Part shown: one piece after another, positions 7,071 to 32,489 of the stretch
Layout: every line of letters starts with the position of its first letter
Position numbering within the stretch: the stretch's first letter is position 1
From: Acidobacteriota bacterium
GTDB taxonomy: Bacteria; Acidobacteriota; Vicinamibacteria; Vicinamibacterales; CAVVIG01
DNA length: 64,000 nucleotides
Direction of reading: 5' to 3'
Assembly: GCA_018268955.1 (NCBI GenBank)
Contig: JAFDVO010000010.1
Location: 1-64,000 of the forward strand
Made by a program: the position numbers and the translations under genes
Notes under the pieces: model-generated
The model's database searches: none
Told to the model about the DNA's origin: nothing
The model's input: only the letters and a program-made list of their open reading frames with translations

Positions 7071-7436
7071 TCACGGGCCTCTCCGCGCGGAAGACTGGGC
7101 GCTCCTCACTATCGCGCTCAGGATCGCCGCCAGTTGACGCGCCTCATCCAGGTCGGCGCTGACAGTTCCCTTTGGCAGCAGGCACTTCGCGTCAATCAGA
7201 CGGAGCCAGAACAACACCTCTCGACATTCCTTGCGCGAAATAGCCAGCTTGGCTACGAAATCAGCCTTGGACTGCCCTGCCGCGGCTTCAGCCGCGTTGG
7301 CGCCAATGGCAGTCGCCGCACGGAGGTACTGACGGGCAATCTCCCTACCCGCGCCTCCGGCTTCATTGAGCAGGCCAAAGACATCCACTGCGCGGCACGC
7401 AAATCGAAACAACCTCTCGTCGATCTCTTTGGCCAT
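7071..7436 (-). CDS. Four-helix-bundle protein (23S rRNA intervening-sequence family)
   Basis: A 121-residue helical protein of the family found in rRNA intervening sequences and also free in many bacterial genomes. Recognisable parts are RLFRFACRAVDVFGLL, GREIARQYLRAATAIGANAAE and KADFVAKLAISRKECREVLFWLRL. It probably forms a pentameric four-helix-bundle assembly as in structurally known relatives; its biochemical role is unclear. The start at 7436 fits the family N-terminus, and the frame's further upstream extension is non-coding. A perfect palindrome at 7514-7530 lies upstream. No 23S rRNA gene or reverse transcriptase is near. Confidence 0.85.
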   Translation of the reverse strand: MAKEIDERLFRFACRAVDVFGLLNEAGGAGREIARQYLRAATAIGANAAEAAAGQSKADFVAKLAISRKECREVLFWLRLIDAKCLLPKGTVSADLDEARQLAAILSAIVRSAQSSARRGP

Positions 7437-7513
7437 CGTAGCTGGCGCTTCAAGAACAGCACCATTCGAGCGCGACCGCAAACGGCGGCTCCGGGATCGC
7501 GCACGTTGCAGAC

Positions 7514-7530
7514 GTCGCAGATTCTGCGAC
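7514..7530. promoter_or_regulatory. Perfect 7+3+7 palindrome upstream of four-helix-bundle gene
   Basis: GTCGCAG-ATT-CTGCGAC is a perfect dyad about 80 bp before the four-helix-bundle start codon and 130 bp before the divergent gene at 7659. It could be an operator. No protein is known to bind it from the sequence alone. Confidence 0.4.
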
Positions 7531-7622
7531 TCTCGAATCCGGTATGTTGCGTAATCGGGTCGAACGGCGAAGCTGCCGCTTGCGTTGTGGCGTTCGTGCG
7601 TTAGTCCGTTGCGACGTAGCTC

Positions 7623-7651
7623 TTGCCAAACCGGCTGCCACTCTCTAGAGT
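7623..7651 (+). promoter_or_regulatory. Sigma70-type promoter giving a leaderless transcript
   Basis: TTGCCA (7623-7628), a 17-bp spacer and TAGAGT (7646-7651) precede the ATG at 7659 by only 7 bp. A start of transcription at the usual 6-8 bp below the -10 would fall at or just before the ATG. No Shine-Dalgarno sequence is present. Confidence 0.7.
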
Positions 7652-7658
7652 CCCTTAG

Positions 7659-8612
7659 ATGCAGCGCGTGCGCGCGCGGGGAATCGGCGTGGGCGTCGTG
7701 ATGGTGCTCGCCGCGGCGGTGGGCGTCATCGCAGGGCAGGCCGTCCCGCCGCCACCGCTGACCGCCGTGCTCTCGCGTGCGGCGACGTATGTCGAGCGGT
7801 TTGCCGATCGTGTCTCGGGCATTGTTGTCGCCGAGGCGTACCAGCAGGATGTCTTCCTGCCGATCAACCGTTTCGGCGGCCGGCCGAATCAGCGCACGTA
7901 CAACGGACCACTCCACCGCGAGCTGCTGTCGGACCTGCTGCTGGTGCGGCCCGTGGGCGCCGACGGCTGGATGCAGTTCCGCGATGTGACGGAGGTGGAC
8001 GGCCGGAAGCTGAAGGACCGGAACGACCGCCTCGCGCGGCTGTTCCTCGATCCGTCCAAGAACACGGCGGCGCAGTCGCGGAAGATCATGGAAGAGAGCG
8101 CGCGCTACAACATCGGCGACATCGAGCGGAACATCAACCTGCCGGTGCTGGCGCTGGCCGTGCTCGATCGGCGGATGCAGCACGGCTTCGAGTTCAGCTA
8201 CGCGCCGGCCGATGAGAAGATCGCGCTGCCGAAGCGGCCGGCGTTTGCGGCACCGGCCGATGCCCTGGTGGTCTCGTTTCGGGAGACGCAGTTGCGTACG
8301 ATGGTCGCCTCGCCGCAGGGAAAGAACCTGCCGACGAGCGGTCACTTCTGGCTGGACCGCAGCAGCTCGCGGATTGCCATGACGGAGATCGGCATCGACG
8401 ACCTCTGGCTGAAGGCGCAGATCTTCGTGGCCTACGGCCTGGTCGACGGGATCGACATGCCGGTACCCGTGGAGATGTTCGAGCGGTACGAGAACAAGCT
8501 GAACGGCACGCGTGTCGAGGGCTCGGCCACCTATTCCAACTTCAGGGAATTCACCGTGGCTGTCGATGAGGACATCGCCCCGATCGACAACAAGGGGAAA
8601 CAGGTGCGTTGA
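7659..8612 (+). CDS. Secreted hypothetical protein
   Basis: A 317-residue protein with a signal peptide (hydrophobic VGVVMVLAAAVGVIAGQA, residues about 11-28). The mature part has no recognised catalytic motif. It contains repeated charged/aromatic segments such as RYNIGDIERNINLP, SGHFWLDRSSSRIAMTE and the C-terminal FREFTVAVDEDI. The HFWLD/SSSRI arrangement resembles the outer-membrane lipoprotein-like beta sheets seen in many acidobacterial secreted hypotheticals. It stops 4 bp before the Ku start, so the two may be co-transcribed, although a shared function is not evident. The promoter looks leaderless. Confidence 0.7.
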   Translation: MQRVRARGIGVGVVMVLAAAVGVIAGQAVPPPPLTAVLSRAATYVERFADRVSGIVVAEAYQQDVFLPINRFGGRPNQRTYNGPLHRELLSDLLLVRPVGADGWMQFRDVTEVDGRKLKDRNDRLARLFLDPSKNTAAQSRKIMEESARYNIGDIERNINLPVLALAVLDRRMQHGFEFSYAPADEKIALPKRPAFAAPADALVVSFRETQLRTMVASPQGKNLPTSGHFWLDRSSSRIAMTEIGIDDLWLKAQIFVAYGLVDGIDMPVPVEMFERYENKLNGTRVEGSATYSNFREFTVAVDEDIAPIDNKGKQVR

Positions 8613-23901: not shown

Positions 23902-24810
23902 CTACGCTGCCGGTGGCGCGTCGCCGTCGAGTCCGGCCAGCTCGAAGAGCACCGTCGCCAGCGCGGAGTAGTCCAACTCGGCGCCTCCGGAGGCAATGAG
24001 GGCGTTCAGCATCTGCCCGACCACAGCCGTCGCCGGCATGGCCACGCCGCTCGCGCCGGCTGCCTCGGCCGCGAGGCGCAGGTCCTTCTGGTAGAGCCGT
24101 GAGCGGAAGCCAGGCACGTAGTTCCGCTTGAGCATCCGCTCGCCGTGGACTTCGAGGACACGGCTGGCGGCGAATCCACCGAGCAACGCGTCACGGACGC
24201 GAGCCGGGTCGACGCCTGACTTGCGCGCGAGGGCAAACGCCTCGCTCACGCCCGCAAGTGCGCCTCCGATCGCCACCTGATTGCAGATCTTGCAGATCTG
24301 CCCCGCGCCGGGCTCAGGCCCTACATGGACGATGCGCTCGGGGTTACCCATGCACTCGAGCACGGGCCGCACGCGTGCGAGTGCGGCCGGGTCGCCGCCC
24401 ACCATAATCGACAGCGTCGCGTTGATGGCGCCGATCTCTCCGCCACTTACCGGGGCGTCGAGCATCGCGCTGCCCTTCTCCGCCACCAGGCCTGCCAGAC
24501 GCTTCGTGGCCACGGGCGAGATGCTGCTCATGTCGATGACGACCGATCCGGGCCCGAGCGTGGACAGGACGCCGTTGTCGCCGACAAGGACAGCTTCCAC
24601 GTCTGGCGTATCCGGCACCATCGTGATGACCACTGTCGCCTGCCGGGCGACGTCCGCGGGCGAGCTTGCCCCGATGGCACCAGCGGCGACGAGTTCGTCG
24701 ACCGCGGGACGACTCCGGTTGTACGCCACGACCGTGTATCCCTTGGCGAGGAGATGCCTTGCCATGGGCTTGCCCATCACACCAAGACCGATGAAGCCGA
24801 TACGTTCCAT
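23902..24810 (-). CDS. 2-hydroxy-3-oxopropionate reductase-type dehydrogenase (GarR/HIBADH family)
   Basis: A 302-residue NAD(P)-dependent beta-hydroxyacid dehydrogenase. The Rossmann motif is IGFIGLGVMGKPMARHL, typical of the family. The substrate loop is DAPVSGGEIGAINATLSIM and the catalytic Lys is in GAGQICKICNQ, the usual GxGxxxKxxxN motif. Tartronate semialdehyde reductase fits the length and DAPVSGGE loop, but 3-hydroxyisobutyrate or succinic semialdehyde reduction are also possible. It is divergent from the SDR gene at 24955. No glyoxylate genes are adjacent. Confidence 0.88.
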   Translation of the reverse strand: MERIGFIGLGVMGKPMARHLLAKGYTVVAYNRSRPAVDELVAAGAIGASSPADVARQATVVITMVPDTPDVEAVLVGDNGVLSTLGPGSVVIDMSSISPVATKRLAGLVAEKGSAMLDAPVSGGEIGAINATLSIMVGGDPAALARVRPVLECMGNPERIVHVGPEPGAGQICKICNQVAIGGALAGVSEAFALARKSGVDPARVRDALLGGFAASRVLEVHGERMLKRNYVPGFRSRLYQKDLRLAAEAAGASGVAMPATAVVGQMLNALIASGGAELDYSALATVLFELAGLDGDAPPAA

Positions 24811-24954
24811 TCGTGCACTCCAGGGGAGCTGGGAGAATCTCAGGTCGCAGATTGCCTCGCCGGGGCCGTCGAGAACGGCCGATTATGTCGCGGCGACGCC
24901 GTGTTCGCAACGCTCGGCCAATCAGCCATCCGCAATCTACAATCTGCAATTCAG

Positions 24955-25695
24955 ATGGACCTTCAGGGACGCGTGGCGCTCATCACCGGGGCGAAGCGGA
25001 TTGGTGCGGTTGTGGCGCAGGCGCTCGCGGAACGCGGCGCCAGCATCGGGCTGTCCTATGCGCAATCGAAGGAGGAAGCGCTCGCTGCGGTGGCCGCGGT
25101 CGAGCGGGTCGGCACCGGGGCACTTGCCGTGCGCGCCGACCTCAGGGACCCGGATGCATGTGCGGCGCTGGTGGACGCGACCGTCGCCCGTTTTGGTCGG
25201 CTGGACATCCTGATCAACATGGCGTCGGTCTACGTGAAGCGACCGTTGGATTCGCTGTCTCACGCGGACTGGGACGCGGTGGTGAACGTCGACCTGCGTG
25301 CGGCGTTCCTCTGTTCGCAGGCCGCCATCCCTCACATGCGCCGACTTGGCGGTGGCCGCATCGTCAACTTCAGTGATTGGGTCGCGACCAGCGGAAGGCC
25401 GCGCTACCTGGGCTACGTGCCGTACTACGTGGCCAAGGCAGGCGTGAAGGCCCTGAGCGAGGCGCTCGCCCTCGAACTCGCCCCTGACAACATCCTGGTC
25501 AACACCGTCGCACCGGGCCCGATTGTCGCGCCACCCGGAACCTCTGCGGACGAGTACGCAGCCGTGGAGAAGGCCACGCCCCTCGGGCGGTGGGGTGGCG
25601 AGCAGGAGATTGCCAAGGCGGTGCTCGCCCTCGTCGACACGGACTTCATCACGGGTGAAACGATTCGGGTCGACGGCGGACGCCACCTTCGCTGA
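24955..25695 (+). CDS. Short-chain dehydrogenase/reductase (FabG or pteridine-reductase-like)
   Basis: A 246-residue classical SDR. VALITGAKRIGAVVAQALAE is the cofactor loop; the RIG step with a following basic character is seen in PTR1/FolM-type pteridine reductases as well as FabG. NMAS is the structural Asn motif, NFSDW holds the catalytic Ser, and YYVAKAG the Tyr and Lys. GETIRVDGGRHLR is the usual end. The start at 24955 is the first Met before the cofactor fold; TACAAT lies 11 bp upstream. It is convergent with a folate-type reductase gene, which makes a pterin role thinkable but unproven. Confidence 0.85.
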   Translation: MDLQGRVALITGAKRIGAVVAQALAERGASIGLSYAQSKEEALAAVAAVERVGTGALAVRADLRDPDACAALVDATVARFGRLDILINMASVYVKRPLDSLSHADWDAVVNVDLRAAFLCSQAAIPHMRRLGGGRIVNFSDWVATSGRPRYLGYVPYYVAKAGVKALSEALALELAPDNILVNTVAPGPIVAPPGTSADEYAAVEKATPLGRWGGEQEIAKAVLALVDTDFITGETIRVDGGRHLR

Positions 25696-25698
25696 GAC

Positions 25699-25765
25699 AC
25701 CAGCGGGCACGCCCTCTTAGGCTTCGCGCGTCCGTCCTTGTGCCCGCGTGCGCTGGTGCCTTGGT
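25699..25765. terminator. Long imperfect inverted repeat between convergent genes
   Basis: CACCAGCGGGCAC near 25699 pairs with GTGCCCGC and CGCTGGTG near 25740-25760. It sits between the stops of the SDR and the MetF-like gene. There is no T tract, so terminator function is tentative. Confidence 0.35.
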
Positions 25766-25782
25766 GCCAGTCCGTAGTGGCC

Positions 25783-26628
25783 TTAAAGTCCCGCTTTCGC
25801 GAGGATGTTGGCGAGCACGTTCTGGGCGCGGGAGACCGGCAGGTTGCTGATGTAAAAGTGGCGCGCCCCTGCCTCGACAAGCGCGCGAAGCGTGCGCGCG
25901 CAGACCTCCTCAGCTGTTGCGCCGGCGGCGAATTCGCGGGTGAGCCCTTCTGCCGGAACAGGTAGGAAGCCTTTCAGGACCTCCAGCGTCTTCGGGTTCG
26001 CGCTGCGGTAGTAGAACACGCCGTAGACACCCGGCAACTCGACACGTCGGCGCTGGAGTTCGGCGACGAACCTCGAGACCGCCCGGACATCGTGGTGGCT
26101 CACGACCTGCGTCAGGAAGAACTCCGCGGTGAAGTTGTCATCAAGCAGGAAGTCAACCTGGCGTGTCGCGTCGGCGTGCGGATTGGCCCAGCCGCCCAGC
26201 GCCAGCCCGGGCGTGTGCTGCCGGAGCTTGCGCCGCAGTTCCCAGGCGTGCTCGACGCACCGGGGCGTGCCGACCGCCTTGTCACCGCCGAGCACGACGA
26301 GCGCCGGGAAGCCGCTCTGACGGGCACGGTCGGCGTACGACAGGCAGTACTCCATCGAGTGCTTGGACGTCATGAACGGCACGATCCGTTCACGCGGAAC
26401 GTCGCGCTGCAGGTTGGTGACGAGGTGGCGGAGGTTGTCTTCTTCCGCCGCACCCACCGCGCTGTCGGTCAGGAAGACGTAGGTGCCTTCGCGGGTCAGC
26501 TTGCGGACGGCGTGGTACGTGTCGATCCAGGCGTCCATCCCCTCGCGCGACTCGAGTTCCGCGCGTGGAGGCCGAAGTTCCGCCGCGAACACGGGAGATC
26601 CGGATCGCAGGGCCGTGAGGAAGTCCAT
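25783..26628 (-). CDS. Methylenetetrahydrofolate reductase-like protein
   Basis: A 281-residue protein of the MetF superfamily, which uses FAD to reduce methylene-tetrahydrofolate. The barrel opening VFAAELRPPRAELESREGMD has the early Glu of the family. VFLTDSAVGAAEEDNLRHLV, PFMTSKHSMEYCLSYADRA and PALVVLGGDK follow the MetF order (the last two are the flavin and folate contacts). FFLTQVVSHHDVRAVSRFVAEL matches the F-x-T-Q segment. It is somewhat divergent, with methylene-THF reductase not certain; it could act on another folate or C1 carrier. Downstream there is a long GC-rich inverted repeat (26655-26724), maybe a terminator for the operon from 32489. Confidence 0.78.
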   Translation of the reverse strand: MDFLTALRSGSPVFAAELRPPRAELESREGMDAWIDTYHAVRKLTREGTYVFLTDSAVGAAEEDNLRHLVTNLQRDVPRERIVPFMTSKHSMEYCLSYADRARQSGFPALVVLGGDKAVGTPRCVEHAWELRRKLRQHTPGLALGGWANPHADATRQVDFLLDDNFTAEFFLTQVVSHHDVRAVSRFVAELQRRRVELPGVYGVFYYRSANPKTLEVLKGFLPVPAEGLTREFAAGATAEEVCARTLRALVEAGARHFYISNLPVSRAQNVLANILAKAGL

Positions 26629-26728: not shown

Positions 26729-27154
26729 CTACTTGATTCCCTTGAGCACCTCATCGACCAGGAACAGGTCGGTGAGGAGGGCGCGGAGGTGAATCGAGGC
26801 GTTGAGGTTGTCGATCACCTGCGAGCTGATGGCCGGCAGTGTGAGCACCAGTCGGACGGCCGCGCGGGAGGCATGCGCGTCGGCCTCGATCACTTTCATG
26901 AACGCGGCGATCGGCCCGAGCACGGGGTCGTTCTCCGTGCCGACGAACGCATTCACGACGGAGCTGAGGCCCCCAAGGGCGGCCTCAGCCTTCGTCAGGT
27001 ACTCACGCACCTGGGTTCCCTTCGCGCTTCCGGAGTCGGACGCGAGCCCCTGGCCGGCGTAGGCGAGCATGAACTCGTACGCCTCTTCCACCGTATTGCA
27101 GTGCGCGCTCAGTTCAGTGCGCGCCTGGGCGAGCAGTTCGGCTGTCTGAGCCAC
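26729..27154 (-). CDS. Small helical protein coupled to cytochrome b
   Basis: About 141 residues from a GTG whose first base is the last base of the cytochrome b stop (TAGTG), a typical coupled restart. It is all-helical, with no signal peptide and no Cys or His cluster. Recognisable parts are EEAYEFMLAYAGQGLA and SIHLRALLTDLFLVDEVLKGIK. I do not recognise the family. Because it is translationally coupled at the end of the Mo-hydroxylase operon, it may be an accessory or assembly factor for that complex. Confidence 0.6.
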   Translation of the reverse strand: MAQTAELLAQARTELSAHCNTVEEAYEFMLAYAGQGLASDSGSAKGTQVREYLTKAEAALGGLSSVVNAFVGTENDPVLGPIAAFMKVIEADAHASRAAVRLVLTLPAISSQVIDNLNASIHLRALLTDLFLVDEVLKGIK

Positions 27155-27987
27155 TAGCGACCAGCCGCCCCGGAGCGGACGTTCCACCGACGCGGGTCAT
27201 GGTGTTCGAGGTACTGCCGGCGGGTGATGGTGCCGAAGATCATCGACTTGGTGATCCAGAACTTCTCCGGCCGCAGTGCGAAGTACACATGCGCGATCAC
27301 CAGGCCCACCAGCGCAACACCGCACGCGCCGTGAAGCACGTAGGTGAAGCCCCAGGTCGTGTCCGCCATGATGTACGGGTTGCGCTGGAAGATTGGCTGG
27401 CGCACGCGCGACATCATCAGCATCCCGGAGATCGACACGGAGAGGCCGACCACCACGAGCGCGAGGTGATAGAGCCGATTGCCGAGCGGGTACTTGCCGG
27501 TCTTCGGACCGTCACCAGAGCCGGCCAGTTCGGCGGCCATCTCGTGGCGGAACTCCGGGATGTCCTTCGGGCCGATCCAGATCGACCAGAAGTCCATGAA
27601 AAACGCGGCGTGGATGATGTGGTAGATGATCGACGCGGTGAGCAGCAGGCCGGCCATCCAGTGCCACTGGACCCACGCGAAGCGGATCCCCACGATCGGC
27701 AGGAAGGCGGTCAGGAGCAGCGCGAACATCGAGAACGCCATCACCCAGTGGAACATGCGCGCCATGAACGTGTGTCGGGTGATGAGCGGCGGCAGGTCCT
27801 TGTTGGCGGCCTCGAGCGCATCGGTCTCAGCCTTCGCCCGCTTCCTGTTCGACGACAGGATCATGTAGCTGGCGTGCGCCACGAGGAACATCAGTCCGGC
27901 GAAGAGCGCCGCCCAGAACAGGTCCCACGAGATGTGCGTGAGGATCCGCTGGCCCCACGGGTTCCGTCCCCACGTCAGGAAATCCAT
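27154..27987 (-). CDS. Cytochrome b subunit (FdhI/NarI-like) of the Mo-hydroxylase operon
   Basis: A 277-residue integral membrane protein with about five membrane segments. The start at 27987 has TTGGAGG 6 bp upstream. His pairs typical of di-haem b561/formate dehydrogenase gamma subunits occur: ITRHTFMARMFHWVMAFSMF, QWHWMAGLLLTASIIYHIIHAAFF and LHGACGVALVGLVIAHVYFALRPEKFW. The final segment matches the family's last haem helix. Its place directly after the three hydroxylase subunits suggests that it carries electrons from the periplasmic enzyme to quinone, or anchors it. This is an inference from context. Confidence 0.85.
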   Translation of the reverse strand: MDFLTWGRNPWGQRILTHISWDLFWAALFAGLMFLVAHASYMILSSNRKRAKAETDALEAANKDLPPLITRHTFMARMFHWVMAFSMFALLLTAFLPIVGIRFAWVQWHWMAGLLLTASIIYHIIHAAFFMDFWSIWIGPKDIPEFRHEMAAELAGSGDGPKTGKYPLGNRLYHLALVVVGLSVSISGMLMMSRVRQPIFQRNPYIMADTTWGFTYVLHGACGVALVGLVIAHVYFALRPEKFWITKSMIFGTITRRQYLEHHDPRRWNVRSGAAGR

Positions 27988-28081
27988 ATCTGCCTCCAAC
28001 GAGCCACGACCAGACGAACCCCGGGCGGCGTGCCCGGGGCCGGCTGGTCGTTACGTCTGATTGTCCGTACGAGTCGGGTTG

Positions 28082-29092
28082 CTAGGTCGTGGCCTGTGCG
28101 TTCCCGCGGATGGCGCGCTTGACGAGGTTGCGCATCAGCGGAATCTTGTACGCGTTGTAGCGGAGCGGCGTCGCCCCCTGGATCGCCAGTTCGCCCGCCG
28201 CGCTCGCCGTCTCTTCCGTCCGCGGCTTCCCCTTGGTCGCCGCTTCCACGGCCGTCAGCCGCAGCGGCCGCGCCGCCACCGCCCCCACCGCAATCCGCAC
28301 GTCGCTGATCGTCGTGCCCGACAGCTTCATCGCCGACGCCACGTTCACCAGTGGGAAGTCCCACACGTTCCGGTCCCGCACCTTCTCCCAGTAGAACTGC
28401 GCGTTCGCCCAGGTCGCCGGAATCCGGATTGCCGTCAGCAGCTCGCCCGGCCGCAGCACCGTCATGTGCGTGATGTCGATCTGCGGGCCCAGGAAATACT
28501 CCTCGGCCTTCACCACCCGCTCCCCGCCCGTGCTGCGGATCACGAACTCCGCATCGAGCGCAATCAGCGCCGGCGCCGTGTCCGACGGGCTCACCGCCAC
28601 GCAGCGGTCCTGCTGCAGGATCGCGTGCTCCCGGTTGATCGCCGTCGGCGTGTCCGCGTAGCAGATGTTCCCACCCGCCCGGTAGCACGACCACCCGCTC
28701 CGGTAATACCAGCAGCGCGTGTCCTGCGACACGTTCCCGCCCAGCGTCGCCTGGTTGCGGATCTGCGGCGAGGCCACCATCTCCGCCGCCTCCGCCAGGA
28801 TCCGGAACTTCTCCCGCACCACCGGGTGGTGCACCACCTCGGTCAGCGTCGTCGTCGCGCCGATCTCGAGGCCGCCGTTGGCCTCCTTGATCCCGCGCAG
28901 CTCGCCCACCTGGCTCAGGTCCACCACCGTGCTCACCCGCTTGGTGCGGTCCTTCAGCCAGTCGAACGAGTCCATCCCGCCCCCGAGCACCCACACGTCG
29001 CCCCGGTGCGCGTCCAGCAGGTTCAGCGCCTCGTCGATGCTCGCCGGCTGGAACAGCTCGAACACCGGCATCATGTCGCGAATCACGGCCAT
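28082..29092 (-). CDS. FAD-binding subunit of Mo hydroxylase, with extra 4-Cys insert
   Basis: A 336-residue protein of the CO-dehydrogenase flavoprotein/xanthine dehydrogenase FAD family. FAD motifs are VLGGGMDSFDWLKDR and LEIGATTTLTEVV, with PQIRNQATLGGN. After this comes a loop with four Cys (127, 136, 144, 164: DTRCWYYRSG, SCYRAGGNICYAD, DRCVAVSPSD). The same layout binds a [4Fe-4S] cluster in PaoB and in the beta subunit of 4-hydroxybenzoyl-CoA reductase. It is third-subunit partner to the genes at 29125 and 31854 and lacks its own signal, so it would travel with the Tat subunit. Confidence 0.9.
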   Translation of the reverse strand: MAVIRDMMPVFELFQPASIDEALNLLDAHRGDVWVLGGGMDSFDWLKDRTKRVSTVVDLSQVGELRGIKEANGGLEIGATTTLTEVVHHPVVREKFRILAEAAEMVASPQIRNQATLGGNVSQDTRCWYYRSGWSCYRAGGNICYADTPTAINREHAILQQDRCVAVSPSDTAPALIALDAEFVIRSTGGERVVKAEEYFLGPQIDITHMTVLRPGELLTAIRIPATWANAQFYWEKVRDRNVWDFPLVNVASAMKLSGTTISDVRIAVGAVAARPLRLTAVEAATKGKPRTEETASAAGELAIQGATPLRYNAYKIPLMRNLVKRAIRGNAQATT

Positions 29093-29124
29093 AACTTCAG
29101 CACTCCCAAAAAGTAGGCGTTTCC

Positions 29125-31851
29125 TTAGATGTGGGCCGTGAGGGCCTCATGCTGCCGCTGCCCGCCGTGCTCGAGCGCCATCAGGATGACGTCGGGCGTG
29201 ACCGGCGTGCGACGGAAGACTTCGTCGCCCACCGCAGCTGCCAGCGCATTCATCACCGCGCCGTAGCCGGCGCCCACCGGCGGTTCGCCGATGCCACGCG
29301 CGCCGACCGGGGTCTCCGGGTCAGGGATGTTCAGCGCCGCGAACTTCATCTCGACCGGCTTGTCGAGGATGGTCGGCGGACGGTTGTAGTGGAAGCGCTT
29401 GGCGAGTGGCACGCCGTAGTGCTGGTCGTACACCCACTTCTGCGAGATGGCGTGGCCGATGCCGAGCATCGCGCCGCCGAACGCCTGGCCCTGGAGGCTG
29501 CGGGGGTTGACCACGATGCCGACGTCCGCGATGAGCGTGAAGTCGACGATCGAGTACTTGCCGGTCTCGACGTCGACCTCGACCTCCGCGAAGCCGACCG
29601 CGTAGGACTGCGTCTGGCCGTCGCGCGGGTAGTTGTCCTTCGCGACACCCATCAGGCCCATGCCGGCGAGCTTCGCGGCCGACGCCTTGGTGAGGCCATT
29701 GATGTCGGTCGGCAGCTCGTGCCCGTCGTACTTGCCACCGAGCTCGATCGCCTTCTGTGCCGCCTGCGCCAGCGTGATGCTGCCGCCCGGTCCGGAGACC
29801 TTGCCGCCACCCACCTTGTAGGCCGCCGGGTTGCCGCCCTTCATCTTCGCGGCAATCTCCTGCAGCTTCGCAATCGCGTCGGTCGCAGCCGCGTGCGCGG
29901 CGCGCGTCATCGCGTGCGTCGTCTGGCTGCCGGCGGAAATCGAGGTCCACGGCAGGTTCTTGCTCGTGTCGCCCCACACGACGTCACAGAGCGACCAGTC
30001 GGCCCCAATCATCTCCGCGGCGACACGGTGCACGTCGATGACCGAGTGCGTGCCGTGGTTGCCGATACCGGACTGGAACTGCACCCGACCGTCCGGCTTG
30101 ATGACGAACAGCCCGTCGAAGCCGGTGGAGCCGCCGGAGTACGCGCTGACCGCAACGCCGCAGCCACGCACCTTCGTGCCCACCCGCTTGCCGCTCCGCG
30201 CCTTCTTCTCGTCCCAGTTGAAGAGCTCGCGGCCCTTGTCGAGCGCCTCGGGAATGAAGCAGCTCGTGACGTAGGCCTGCCTGCCACGCGCGACGGCAGG
30301 GCCGAACGGCGCCTTGCCGTGCGGCGCGTTGATCTTGTGGATCTCGACTTCGTCGATGCCCAGCTTGCGGGCGGCTTTCGCCATCACGGGCTCCATGAGG
30401 CCGTTGCCCTGCATGCCACCCGGGGCGCGCTGAGACGTACGCGGCGGCGTGTTGGTCAGCACGGTGATGCCGCGGAAGCGCATGTGCGCCGGCTGGTAGC
30501 ACAGCGACACTGTGTTACCCACCGAGCGATAGTCGCCCTGCGCCTCGTACGGACCGTTGTCACCAACCGCGTAGAGGTCGATCGCGGTGATCTTGCCGTC
30601 CTTGCGGAAGCCGACCTTCACGCGCGAATGGATGCCGGAGCGCGCACGACCGATGTAGTGCTCTTCCTCACGGCTGATGCGCATCATGACCGGCGCCTGC
30701 GCCTTCTTCGAGAGCAGCGCCGGAATCGCCATCGAAATGGCGCCGGGGATCTTGCTGCCGAAGCCGCCGCCGGTGTACTCGCTCACGAGCACGAGCTCGG
30801 TCGGCTTGATGCCGACCCAGCGCGCGACCGAGCCGATCGTCTGCACCGTGCTCTGCGTGGAGCCGTAGAGGAACAGCTTGCCGTTCTGCCAGTACGCCAT
30901 CGCCGAGCGTGTTTCGAGCGGCTGGTGACCGGTGGACTGGCTGACGAACGTTTCTTCCAGAATCAGGTCCGCCTGCTTGAAGCCCTCTTCTGGATTGCCG
31001 AAGGTCCATTCGCTGCCAGGTGCGGGCTTGCCGGTCGGCATGTGGCCGGTCTTGGCGGCCTCATCGAAGTCGGCCTGCTCCCACTTCAGTTCCTGGATTT
31101 CGGGACGCGGAGGCGCCCCAGCGGGAGGCCCGCCGGCGCGCGCGCCGGCCGCCGCACCTGCGGCAGGAGCGCTCCCGGCAGCCGCCGGACCCGCCCCCCG
31201 CGTGCCGCCCTGCGGCGCGTTCGACGCTCCGGCCGCTGCGCCCTGTTGCGGCGTCGCCGCACCCGCCACTGCGGCGCCAGGCGGCGGAGCCGCGGCACCA
31301 GGAGCTGTTCCAGCTGCGCCAGCCGCGGCACCACCAGCCGCGGCGCCGGCCGGGGGCGGCGCTGCCTGCCGCGCGAACCAGGTATTGCCCTGCAGCCGCG
31401 CATTCGGGCTGCCGGGGCGCAGCCCTTCAATCGGGTCGACGACAAAGGGCAGCGGCTCGTACTCGACGACGATCTTCTCGATCGCCTCAGCAGCCGTCAG
31501 TTCATCGACTGCCGCGACCGCAAGGATCGGCTCGCCCTCGTATGCCGGCTCCTTGGTCAGGATCTTCTCGCCCTGGTTGCTGGCCTGCACGCCCTCGCCA
31601 AGGGTGCCGCCGCCCTGAGCTTCCGGCAGGTCGTCGGCCGTGATGATCGCCTTGACGCCCGGCATCGCCAGCGCGGCGCTCACGTCGATGTTCTTGACCC
31701 GCGCATGCGGCATCGGGCTCAGCATCAGCTTCGTCCACAGCATGCCGTCGACGCGGTAATCCTCCGCGTACTTCGCCTTGCCCGTGACCTTCGCGACGAT
31801 GTCCGGGGTCGTGTAGTTCTGCCCGATCAGCTTGTTGGTGTTCTCAGCCAC
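29125..31851 (-). CDS. Molybdopterin-binding large subunit of aldehyde/xanthine-type hydroxylase
   Basis: A 908-residue Mo-cofactor subunit starting with GTG just after the [2Fe-2S] gene. Residues 1-160 are the a/b hammerhead (TGKAKYAEDYRVDGML). Residues about 163-250 are an Ala/Gly/Pro-rich insert that is absent from family members I know. The Mo domain follows: GGFGSKIPGA, RAPGGMQGNGLMEPV and ISAGSQTTHAMTRAAH. The catalytic Glu is in GARGIGEPPVGAG near the C-terminus. It hydroxylates an aldehyde or N-heterocycle with water as oxygen source. The substrate cannot be deduced. Partners are the [2Fe-2S], FAD and cytochrome b genes of the same operon. Confidence 0.92.
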   Translation of the reverse strand: MAENTNKLIGQNYTTPDIVAKVTGKAKYAEDYRVDGMLWTKLMLSPMPHARVKNIDVSAALAMPGVKAIITADDLPEAQGGGTLGEGVQASNQGEKILTKEPAYEGEPILAVAAVDELTAAEAIEKIVVEYEPLPFVVDPIEGLRPGSPNARLQGNTWFARQAAPPPAGAAAGGAAAGAAGTAPGAAAPPPGAAVAGAATPQQGAAAGASNAPQGGTRGAGPAAAGSAPAAGAAAGARAGGPPAGAPPRPEIQELKWEQADFDEAAKTGHMPTGKPAPGSEWTFGNPEEGFKQADLILEETFVSQSTGHQPLETRSAMAYWQNGKLFLYGSTQSTVQTIGSVARWVGIKPTELVLVSEYTGGGFGSKIPGAISMAIPALLSKKAQAPVMMRISREEEHYIGRARSGIHSRVKVGFRKDGKITAIDLYAVGDNGPYEAQGDYRSVGNTVSLCYQPAHMRFRGITVLTNTPPRTSQRAPGGMQGNGLMEPVMAKAARKLGIDEVEIHKINAPHGKAPFGPAVARGRQAYVTSCFIPEALDKGRELFNWDEKKARSGKRVGTKVRGCGVAVSAYSGGSTGFDGLFVIKPDGRVQFQSGIGNHGTHSVIDVHRVAAEMIGADWSLCDVVWGDTSKNLPWTSISAGSQTTHAMTRAAHAAATDAIAKLQEIAAKMKGGNPAAYKVGGGKVSGPGGSITLAQAAQKAIELGGKYDGHELPTDINGLTKASAAKLAGMGLMGVAKDNYPRDGQTQSYAVGFAEVEVDVETGKYSIVDFTLIADVGIVVNPRSLQGQAFGGAMLGIGHAISQKWVYDQHYGVPLAKRFHYNRPPTILDKPVEMKFAALNIPDPETPVGARGIGEPPVGAGYGAVMNALAAAVGDEVFRRTPVTPDVILMALEHGGQRQHEALTAHI

Positions 31852-31853
31852 GG

Positions 31854-32489
31854 TTAGGCCCCCCGCATGTTCTCAGCGCCCTTCATGAGGGCCGTCAGAA
31901 TCTTGTCGTAGTCCTGGCAGCGGCACAGGTTCCCGGAGACGCCGTGCGCGAGCTGCTCGCGGGTCGGGTTCGGGTTCGTCTTCAGGTAACCGACCGCCGA
32001 CATGACGAAGCCCGGCATGCAGAACGCACACTGGAAGCCCTGCTCGTCGACGACCCCCTGCTGCACGGGATGCAGCGTCCCCTCGGCCGACGCGAGCCCT
32101 TCGATCGTCACGATCTTCTTGGTGCGCACCGTGTGCGTGAGCACCGAGCACGCATAGTGCGGCACATCGTCGATCAGCACGGTGCAGGCGCCGCACTCCG
32201 CCCGGTCGCATCCGAGCTTGGTGCCGGTCAGCCCCAGCTTGTACCGCAGCGTCTGCGCCAGCGTCTCCTGCTTCATCACGTCGACGCGGCGCTCCTGGCC
32301 GTTCACCGACAGCGAGATCAGGCGTTCCACGCTGCCCGGCGCCGACGCGGTCTGCGTCTGGCCGGCAGCACTGGTGCGAAACAGATAGCTGGCCGAAGAC
32401 ACCGTCGCGCCTGCCGCGATCACGCCCTTGATGAAGTTTCGTCGCGAGGGATTGTTGGGTGTCTCTTCCATCTTGTTGACTTCTTCCAT
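31854..32489 (-). CDS. Tat-exported [2Fe-2S] subunit of Mo hydroxylase
   Basis: A 211-residue electron-transfer subunit. SRRNFIKGVIAAGATVSSAS (residues about 15-34) is a twin-arginine signal, so the holo-complex is exported folded, as in PaoABC. The plant-type cluster has GCDRAECGACTV with further Cys in HYACSVLT. The second cluster has FQCAFCMPGFVMSAV and GNLCRCQDYDKI. The start at 32489 has the strong site GAGGTGAT; ATG 32471 is possible. It is the first gene of the operon running to 26729. Confidence 0.93.
   Translation of the reverse strand: MEEVNKMEETPNNPSRRNFIKGVIAAGATVSSASYLFRTSAAGQTQTASAPGSVERLISLSVNGQERRVDVMKQETLAQTLRYKLGLTGTKLGCDRAECGACTVLIDDVPHYACSVLTHTVRTKKIVTIEGLASAEGTLHPVQQGVVDEQGFQCAFCMPGFVMSAVGYLKTNPNPTREQLAHGVSGNLCRCQDYDKILTALMKGAENMRGA

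Follow-up and report, generated by a model that had tools for sequence, protein, structure and literature searches.

Molybdenum (Mo) hydroxylases of the xanthine oxidase (XO) family include the three-subunit enzyme PaoABC(D) of Escherichia coli, one of the described systems closest to the operon reported here. Excerpts of a 2014 study place a Tat leader on the FeS subunit PaoA and state that the terminal acceptor of PaoABC was then unidentified (PMC3958847). In E. coli the pao genes follow the order FeS-FAD-Mo, with the gene for the chaperone PaoD behind them. Two other XO-family systems, Mo-CO dehydrogenase (with CoxG) and the membrane-bound aldehyde dehydrogenase that acetic acid bacteria possess (8gy3), are linked to the membrane quinone pool, and the link is a c-type cytochrome or CoxG, not a cytochrome b of the type of FdnI. 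The onward path of electrons from periplasmic XO-family enzymes is often obscure, and the conserved gene order described below names an FdnI-like cytochrome b as a candidate acceptor, found in a widespread bacterial phylum together with a conserved protein family that has no name.

Within the window (the whole stretch of 64,000 nucleotides that was analysed), five minus-strand genes at 26729-32489 run in the order FES-MO-FAD-CYTB-S141 (Table 1). A first-pass annotation had proposed this arrangement, and the sequence together with Pfam confirmed it. The Tat signal of the FeS subunit, the four extra Cys of the FAD subunit, the five membrane helices of the cytochrome (predicted in an AF2 model) and the helical protein of 141 residues were likewise borne out; the start codon of the last does overlap the cytochrome stop, the TAG of CYTB (27156-27154) and the GTG of S141 (27154-27152) sharing one base. 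The same annotation erred in likening the subunit order to that of PaoABC, since the order here is FeS-Mo-FAD-CYTB-S141 and not FeS-FAD-Mo-chaperone, and neither a cytochrome b nor an S141 gene adjoins paoABC. The operon combines a catalytic enzyme of a known kind with a cytochrome b from another class of enzymes and an unnamed conserved protein family. No account of the operon was found among titles and abstract openings of the open literature on such enzymes (subscription literature mostly uncovered), and a term search of PMC5900883 for molybdenum, xanthine, aldehyde and carbon monoxide found none of these words.

Table 1. Genes and sub-features of the operon, with positions in the window
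Feature	Position	Strand	Description	Basis
FES	31854..32489	-	[2Fe-2S] subunit, 211 aa, Tat motif SRRNFIKG	Pfam Fer2, Fer2_2, TAT_signal
MO	29125..31851	-	molybdopterin catalytic subunit, 908 aa	Pfam MoCoBD_1, MoCoBD_2, Ald_Xan_dh_C
MO Ala/Gly/Pro-rich insert	31093..31374	-	about residues 160-253	alignment of 80 rows
FAD	28082..29092	-	FAD subunit, 336 aa, four-Cys insert	Pfam FAD_binding_5, CO_deh_flav_C
FAD four-Cys stretch	28601..28714	-	Cys127, 136, 144, 164; predicted [4Fe-4S] site	position equals insert of 1rm6_B
CYTB	27154..27987	-	FdnI-like cytochrome b of 277 aa with five membrane helices (predicted)	PF01292, AF2, Foldseek, hhalign
CYTB extra N-terminal helix	27856..27927	-	residues 21-44, with invariant His38	outside FdnI alignment
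S141	26729..27154	-	all-helical acidic protein, 141 aa, GTG start	AF2 model, 79-member alignment

Hydroxylase subunits

The enzyme belongs to the XO family: its FeS, FAD_binding_5 and MoCoBD subunits score above the Pfam gathering thresholds and the active-site Glu is present. This residue, Glu856 in the G-x-G-E-P-P motif of MO and presumably catalytic, is found in 79 of 80 aligned rows, the remaining row having a gap. Eight Cys of FES are conserved in all or all but one (71 or 72) of the 72 rows aligned, and the four Cys of the FAD insert in 89/89 aligned FAD subunits. The insert of MO, about 95 residues long and situated between the hammerhead and MoCoBD_1 domains, is uncommon; only 4 of the 80 aligned Mo subunits exceed 60 residues at this place (median 21), and two of these four rows come from the same contig.

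The TAT_signal match of FES (19.7 bits) lies under that family's own cut-off of 22.7. A strict Tat motif (S/T/R/K-R-R-x-F-hydrophobic) occurs in 61/71 FES homologues, and one of the ten outside this form carries SRRDLIKG. The motif was seen in 0/79 MO and 1/88 FAD proteins, which suggests that both would be exported together with FES, as may be deduced for PaoABC from the leader of PaoA.

Identity to PaoABC amounts to 34% over 285 residues for the FAD subunit, 38% over 201 for the FeS subunit and 27% over 698 for the Mo subunit, and enzymes of the PaoABC type share the extra four-Cys stretch. By phmmer, the solved structure closest to MO is the alpha subunit of 4-hydroxybenzoyl-CoA reductase (1rm6_A, 199.7 bits), an enzyme to which FAD aligns through the four-Cys insert; 8gy3_C is a weak match of MO (60.7 bits), and the best solved match of FAD is the medium subunit of an aldehyde oxidase (5y6q_B). 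Unlike 4-hydroxybenzoyl-CoA reductase, the enzyme described here is predicted to be Tat-exported and tied to a cytochrome b. All NCBIfam equivalog cut-offs are missed by the hydroxylase subunits, including peri_hyde_PaoC (NF041671; MO reaches 206.9 bits, cut-off 1180), TIGR03194 (322.9 of 994.55 bits) and TIGR03195 (188.9 of 404.55 bits). With the PaoC and 4-hydroxybenzoyl-CoA reductase cut-offs missed by so much, aldehyde, which the first-pass annotation proposed to test, is only one possible substrate. The neighbours of the operon differ between lineages and give no firm hint of a substrate.

An FdnI-like cytochrome b

CYTB is a distant homologue of FdnI, the gamma subunit of formate dehydrogenase-N. 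It has a pI of 10.1 in the window and matches PF01292 (Ni_hydr_CYTB, prokaryotic cytochrome b561) with 73 bits, gathering cut-off 30.1, and it misses TIGR01583, the family of FdnI-type gamma subunits (35.5 of 115.85 bits). The AF2 model (pLDDT 82) has membrane helices at residues 21-44, 74-95, 105-129, 168-194 and 209-238. The sole Foldseek match at E <= 0.001 is FdnI (1kqf_C, E 3e-7), which VIA aligns with the model range 64-277 (Z 15.6, rmsd 3.2 over 197 residues). Profile comparison by hhalign with E. coli proteins gave probabilities of 96.3 for FdnI, 96.1 for FdoI, 42.1 for HyaC and 0.2 for NarI.

Nine His are invariant in 102/102 CYTB sequences. H80, H219 and H233 align with FdnI H18, H155 and H169, and H109 aligns with FdnI H57 after a gap was moved by hand to keep the next Gly in register; we take these four FdnI residues to be haem ligands. 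Besides the fold and the four ligand positions, CYTB shares with FdnI and FdoI a GKY segment and a C-terminal HH-P-RW segment. It differs from them in carrying an additional helix at the N-terminus and another five invariant His (38, 72, 123, 126 and 174), and also in its partner, which is an XO-family enzyme, whereas that of FdnI is formate dehydrogenase, a member of another Mo-enzyme family. By loop charge, the N-terminus faces outward, and the C-terminus is on the inner side with loops 45-73 and 130-167. Under this topology, His 38, 123, 126 and 174 would sit within the membrane's inner half, so that CYTB could hold a third haem or a proton path. Given the homology to FdnI, delivery of electrons to quinone, as the first-pass annotation had concluded, is the natural reading.

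The small protein S141

S141 was first described as a protein of unknown family, and the searches agree with this description. Pfam and NCBIfam gave weak, chance-like matches only, none common to more than 5 of the 79 members, and comparison with solved-structure sequences, by single sequence and by profile, gave scattered weak matches. The AF2 model is a four-helix bundle (pLDDT 91, pTM 0.83), for which Foldseek returned no match at E <= 0.001 and VIA returned Z values up to 12.9, a range common for helical bundles, so that the fold matches are generic. Membership in a named family was rejected, as none of these sources gave a solid match.

Twenty residues are invariant in the 79 sequences, the polar ones including E23, E27, D92, Q112, D115, N116, N118, H122, R124 and D129. 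A designed di-iron bundle is among the fold matches, and no metal site is claimed for the conserved E, D and H residues. The protein is acidic (median pI 4.7 over the 79 members) and has neither a signal nor a membrane stretch (19-residue Kyte-Doolittle maximum 1.53 over the same members), and is therefore probably cytoplasmic.

The role we favour for S141, at about an even chance, is that of an assembly factor. Its position may be likened to that of maturation genes directly following a cytochrome gene in E. coli, as in fdoGHI-fdhE and hyaABC-DEF. Excerpts of one report describe NarJ as mattering for the maturation of the cytochrome NarI (PMC10609526). Compared by hhalign with single E. coli sequences of NarJ, TorD, FdhE, HyaD, HyaE and PaoD, S141 reached probabilities of 0.2-0.3. 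A role as general maturation factor of the XO family was rejected as first choice for two reasons: close operons lacking CYTB occur in genomes lacking S141 (e.g. G008, G018 and G026), and the genome of the window has an XdhC-type protein elsewhere, its sole XdhC_C match lying on contig C42, away from the operon.

Conservation of the gene order

The five genes form a real, widespread and conserved operon that recurs in many soil and water bacteria. Species genomes were scanned with the S141 alignment, which gave 408 coding relatives, and the best 80 were kept as loci. The full FES-MO-FAD-CYTB-S141 order, sought on the basis of the first-pass annotation, is complete in 47 of these best 80 of 408, and one further locus (L134) has it except for masked bases that split CYTB. 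Contig ends cut 26 of the 80 loci, so the order is incomplete there. In six of the 80, FES and FAD are not separated by MO; the locus lacks MO in five of these, and in the sixth (L137) MO follows S141. CYTB lies directly upstream of S141 in 78/80 of these best loci, the remaining two being contig-end cuts that start within about 120 bases of the end. FAD lies directly upstream of CYTB in 75 loci by script and in L134, and two more loci are cut by contig ends. The start of S141 overlaps the stop of CYTB in 36 of 77 measured loci and lies 0-45 bases from it in the other 41, a count that favours short distances because the start codon closest to the CYTB stop was used. The adjacency of CYTB and S141 exceeds chance.

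Among 60 relatives, S141 was found in 26 and CYTB in the same 26 (two result tables matched by eye), and the two genes adjoin in 28/28 loci fetched for S141 matches; several contigs are common to these loci and the 80-locus set. A survey of 396 genomes of the phylum found S141 in 25 and CYTB (E <= 1e-30) in 39, and three more operons from it (L171-L173) again have the five genes in order. The genomes with S141 loci are mostly titled Acidobacteria, together with a few MAGs titled Woeseiaceae, Gammaproteobacteria, Gemmatimonadetes and others, although MAG titles may be wrong and one near relative bears the title Bifidobacterium.

Exceptions to the five-gene order

That a dedicated cytochrome b is linked to the hydroxylase, as the first-pass annotation had it, holds across Acidobacteriota but is not universal. 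Of the FAD genes that show 60% identity or more and can be read downstream, 26/38 are followed by CYTB and 12/38 are not, a count that favours linkage because many of the CYTB-linked loci had been fetched via S141. It covers the loci fetched from relatives (L029-L074), with more than 900 bases downstream required for a gene to be called not linked; L046 (which shares its contig with L060), the FAD copy of the window itself and several short FAD fragments at contig ends (e.g. in G001, G009, G017 and G024) were left out. The converse, CYTB standing apart from hydroxylase genes, was found in a minority only: five copies, L052 and L053 with S141 and L061, L062 and L063 without it, have no FES, FAD or MO within the fetched stretch, and all come from three genomes (G033, G044 and G054) of one family of the same order.

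As far as a quick Mo-subunit tree of 83 rows can tell, presence and absence of CYTB are interleaved. A single origin of the linkage was set aside; the CYTB-less rows need at least 6 changes, and three of them fall on long branches next to two rows with CYTB. Weak paralogues (<400 bits), duplicates and L060 were dropped from the tree and the cut locus L074 was unlabelled; most rows had been fetched via S141, so the proportions are biased.

S141 was not found in 15/39 CYTB-bearing genomes of the phylum, 14 of them from one genus (g112) and one a contig-end case (G351), which indicates that it is not needed everywhere. Neither tblastn nor the profile found S141 in three loci of this genus, where the order is FES-MO-FAD-CYTB; the absence from the genus is read from these three loci and from the match list of the profile survey, in which only some of the genomes without a match are shown. 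L064 and one of the two copies in L046/L060 also lack S141. S141 without CYTB was seen in the 396-genome survey only as a short fragment in G138.

A block FES-FAD-CYTB-S141 without MO is present in three loci of relatives (L043, L044 and L054) and five of the 80-locus set (L104, L106, L107, L118 and L126), and three genomes (G039, G048 and G057) have this four-gene block and a lone Mo gene on another contig. The redox subunits thus stay joined to CYTB as a unit even without the catalytic gene, which is the movable part. The genome of the window also has a lone Mo gene (L163, 8484-10940). As Mo subunits at times occur on their own, one electron-transfer module may be common to several of them, and the presence of orphan Mo subunits where a genome has one redox module suggests that the catalytic parts are interchangeable. 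Mo subunits without a close FAD or FeS partner adjacent were noted in L163, L164, L165, L166, L167, L169 and L168 (8077-10518); their genomes have FAD and FeS subunits elsewhere, and near the one in L168 only a distant XO-family set was seen.

Proposed electron route and alternatives

We consider it likely that the operon encodes a respiratory form of XO-family Mo hydroxylase, in which a periplasmic enzyme reduces quinone through CYTB and S141 assembles or couples the parts. The Tat signal of FES would carry the folded, signal-less FAD and MO partners to the periplasm, where the hydroxylase would oxidise a small molecule at Mo. Electrons would then move from Mo over two [2Fe-2S] clusters and FAD to the [4Fe-4S] cluster of the four-Cys insert, and from there to the periplasmic-side haem b, the cytoplasmic-side haem b of CYTB and quinone, as in FdnGHI. 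Judged by sequence, passage from the periplasmic hydroxylase through CYTB to quinone is the most likely route. S141, cytoplasmic and made together with CYTB, would most likely assemble or load CYTB or couple it to the enzyme. Against this picture stand the close FAD copies that lack CYTB, the CYTB copies unlinked to hydroxylase genes, the CYTB-bearing genomes in which S141 was not found, and the lack of similarity by hhalign between S141 and the six E. coli maturation factors.

It is somewhat unlikely that S141 is instead a permanent cytoplasmic subunit, docked close to the quinone site on CYTB's basic inner face, where it would tune or gate electron or proton transfer. Its acidity against the basic inner loops of CYTB, its many invariant polar residues and its place beside CYTB wherever the DNA allows (78/80 loci) would suit such a subunit, yet CYTB occurs without S141 in one genus (14 genomes; three loci read), and this S141-less CYTB keeps all nine His and most conserved residues. 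The same His bear on whether CYTB serves chiefly as an anchor or as a partner in assembly, with electrons going to a soluble periplasmic acceptor such as a cytochrome c, a route that may apply to the CYTB-less paralogues; we think this reading quite improbable for CYTB. The 12/38 close FAD copies without CYTB are consistent with that arrangement, as is a CYTB-less operon (L065, 770-5726) followed by genes for one-haem and several multihaem c-type cytochromes; however, a mere anchor would not keep nine His, the four FdnI-type ligand positions among them, in 102/102 sequences.

Flow in the reverse direction, with quinol driving, through CYTB, a periplasmic reductase akin to 4-hydroxybenzoyl-CoA reductase, is highly improbable: CoA thioesters are unexpected in the periplasm, quinol is a weak donor for such a reduction, and the cut-offs of TIGR03194 and TIGR03195 are missed. 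It would nevertheless accord with the best solved match of MO, which is that reductase, with the four-Cys insert of the same kind in FAD, and with the title of a cited paper, which names inverted electron flow for 4-hydroxybenzoyl-CoA reductase. Returning to respiratory delivery through CYTB, we would extend it only tentatively, and think the extension unlikely, to a picture in which FES-FAD-CYTB-S141 is a shared respiratory dock for alternative Mo subunits, CYTB, by its additional helix and five additional invariant His, holds a third haem or proton path close to the cytoplasmic face, and S141 represents a novel kind of subunit or chaperone that serves CYTB. If a shared dock existed, several periplasmic hydroxylase activities would depend on a single membrane quinone reductase.

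A second hydroxylase operon and neighbouring genes

The genome of the window holds a second, CYTB-less operon (L055, contig C44 of G000), whose FES and FAD are 96% and 97% identical to those of the window and whose FAD gene is one of the 12 counted above as not followed by CYTB. It has two other Mo subunits, with 71% and 62% identity to the window's MO in global alignment, and a small lipoprotein-like gene (7319-7741) where CYTB would be. When window positions 28082-32489 are compared with the DNA of L055, FES and the beginning of MO show mostly 85-98% identity, as does FAD, and the rest of MO about 61-88%. The mosaic resembles the outcome of gene conversion that affected the redox subunits and spared the catalytic one. 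Contigs of many relatives start or end inside the FAD gene (L029-L034, L036, L038 and L049), as would be expected if near-identical FAD copies break assemblies.

A lipoprotein-like protein of ~140 aa also occurs in L041, L046/L060, L056, L058, L059, L069, L071, L073 and L152. It adjoins mostly CYTB-less hydroxylase operons, and two members that were inspected have no CXXCH. The c-type cytochromes of L065, one small and several multihaem, are a possible alternative acceptor. Downstream of the operon in the window, the genes at 23902-26628 presumably encode, as judged by eye, a methylenetetrahydrofolate-reductase-like protein, an SDR and a 3-hydroxyisobutyrate-dehydrogenase-like protein, and in close relatives homologous genes are again found next to the operon.
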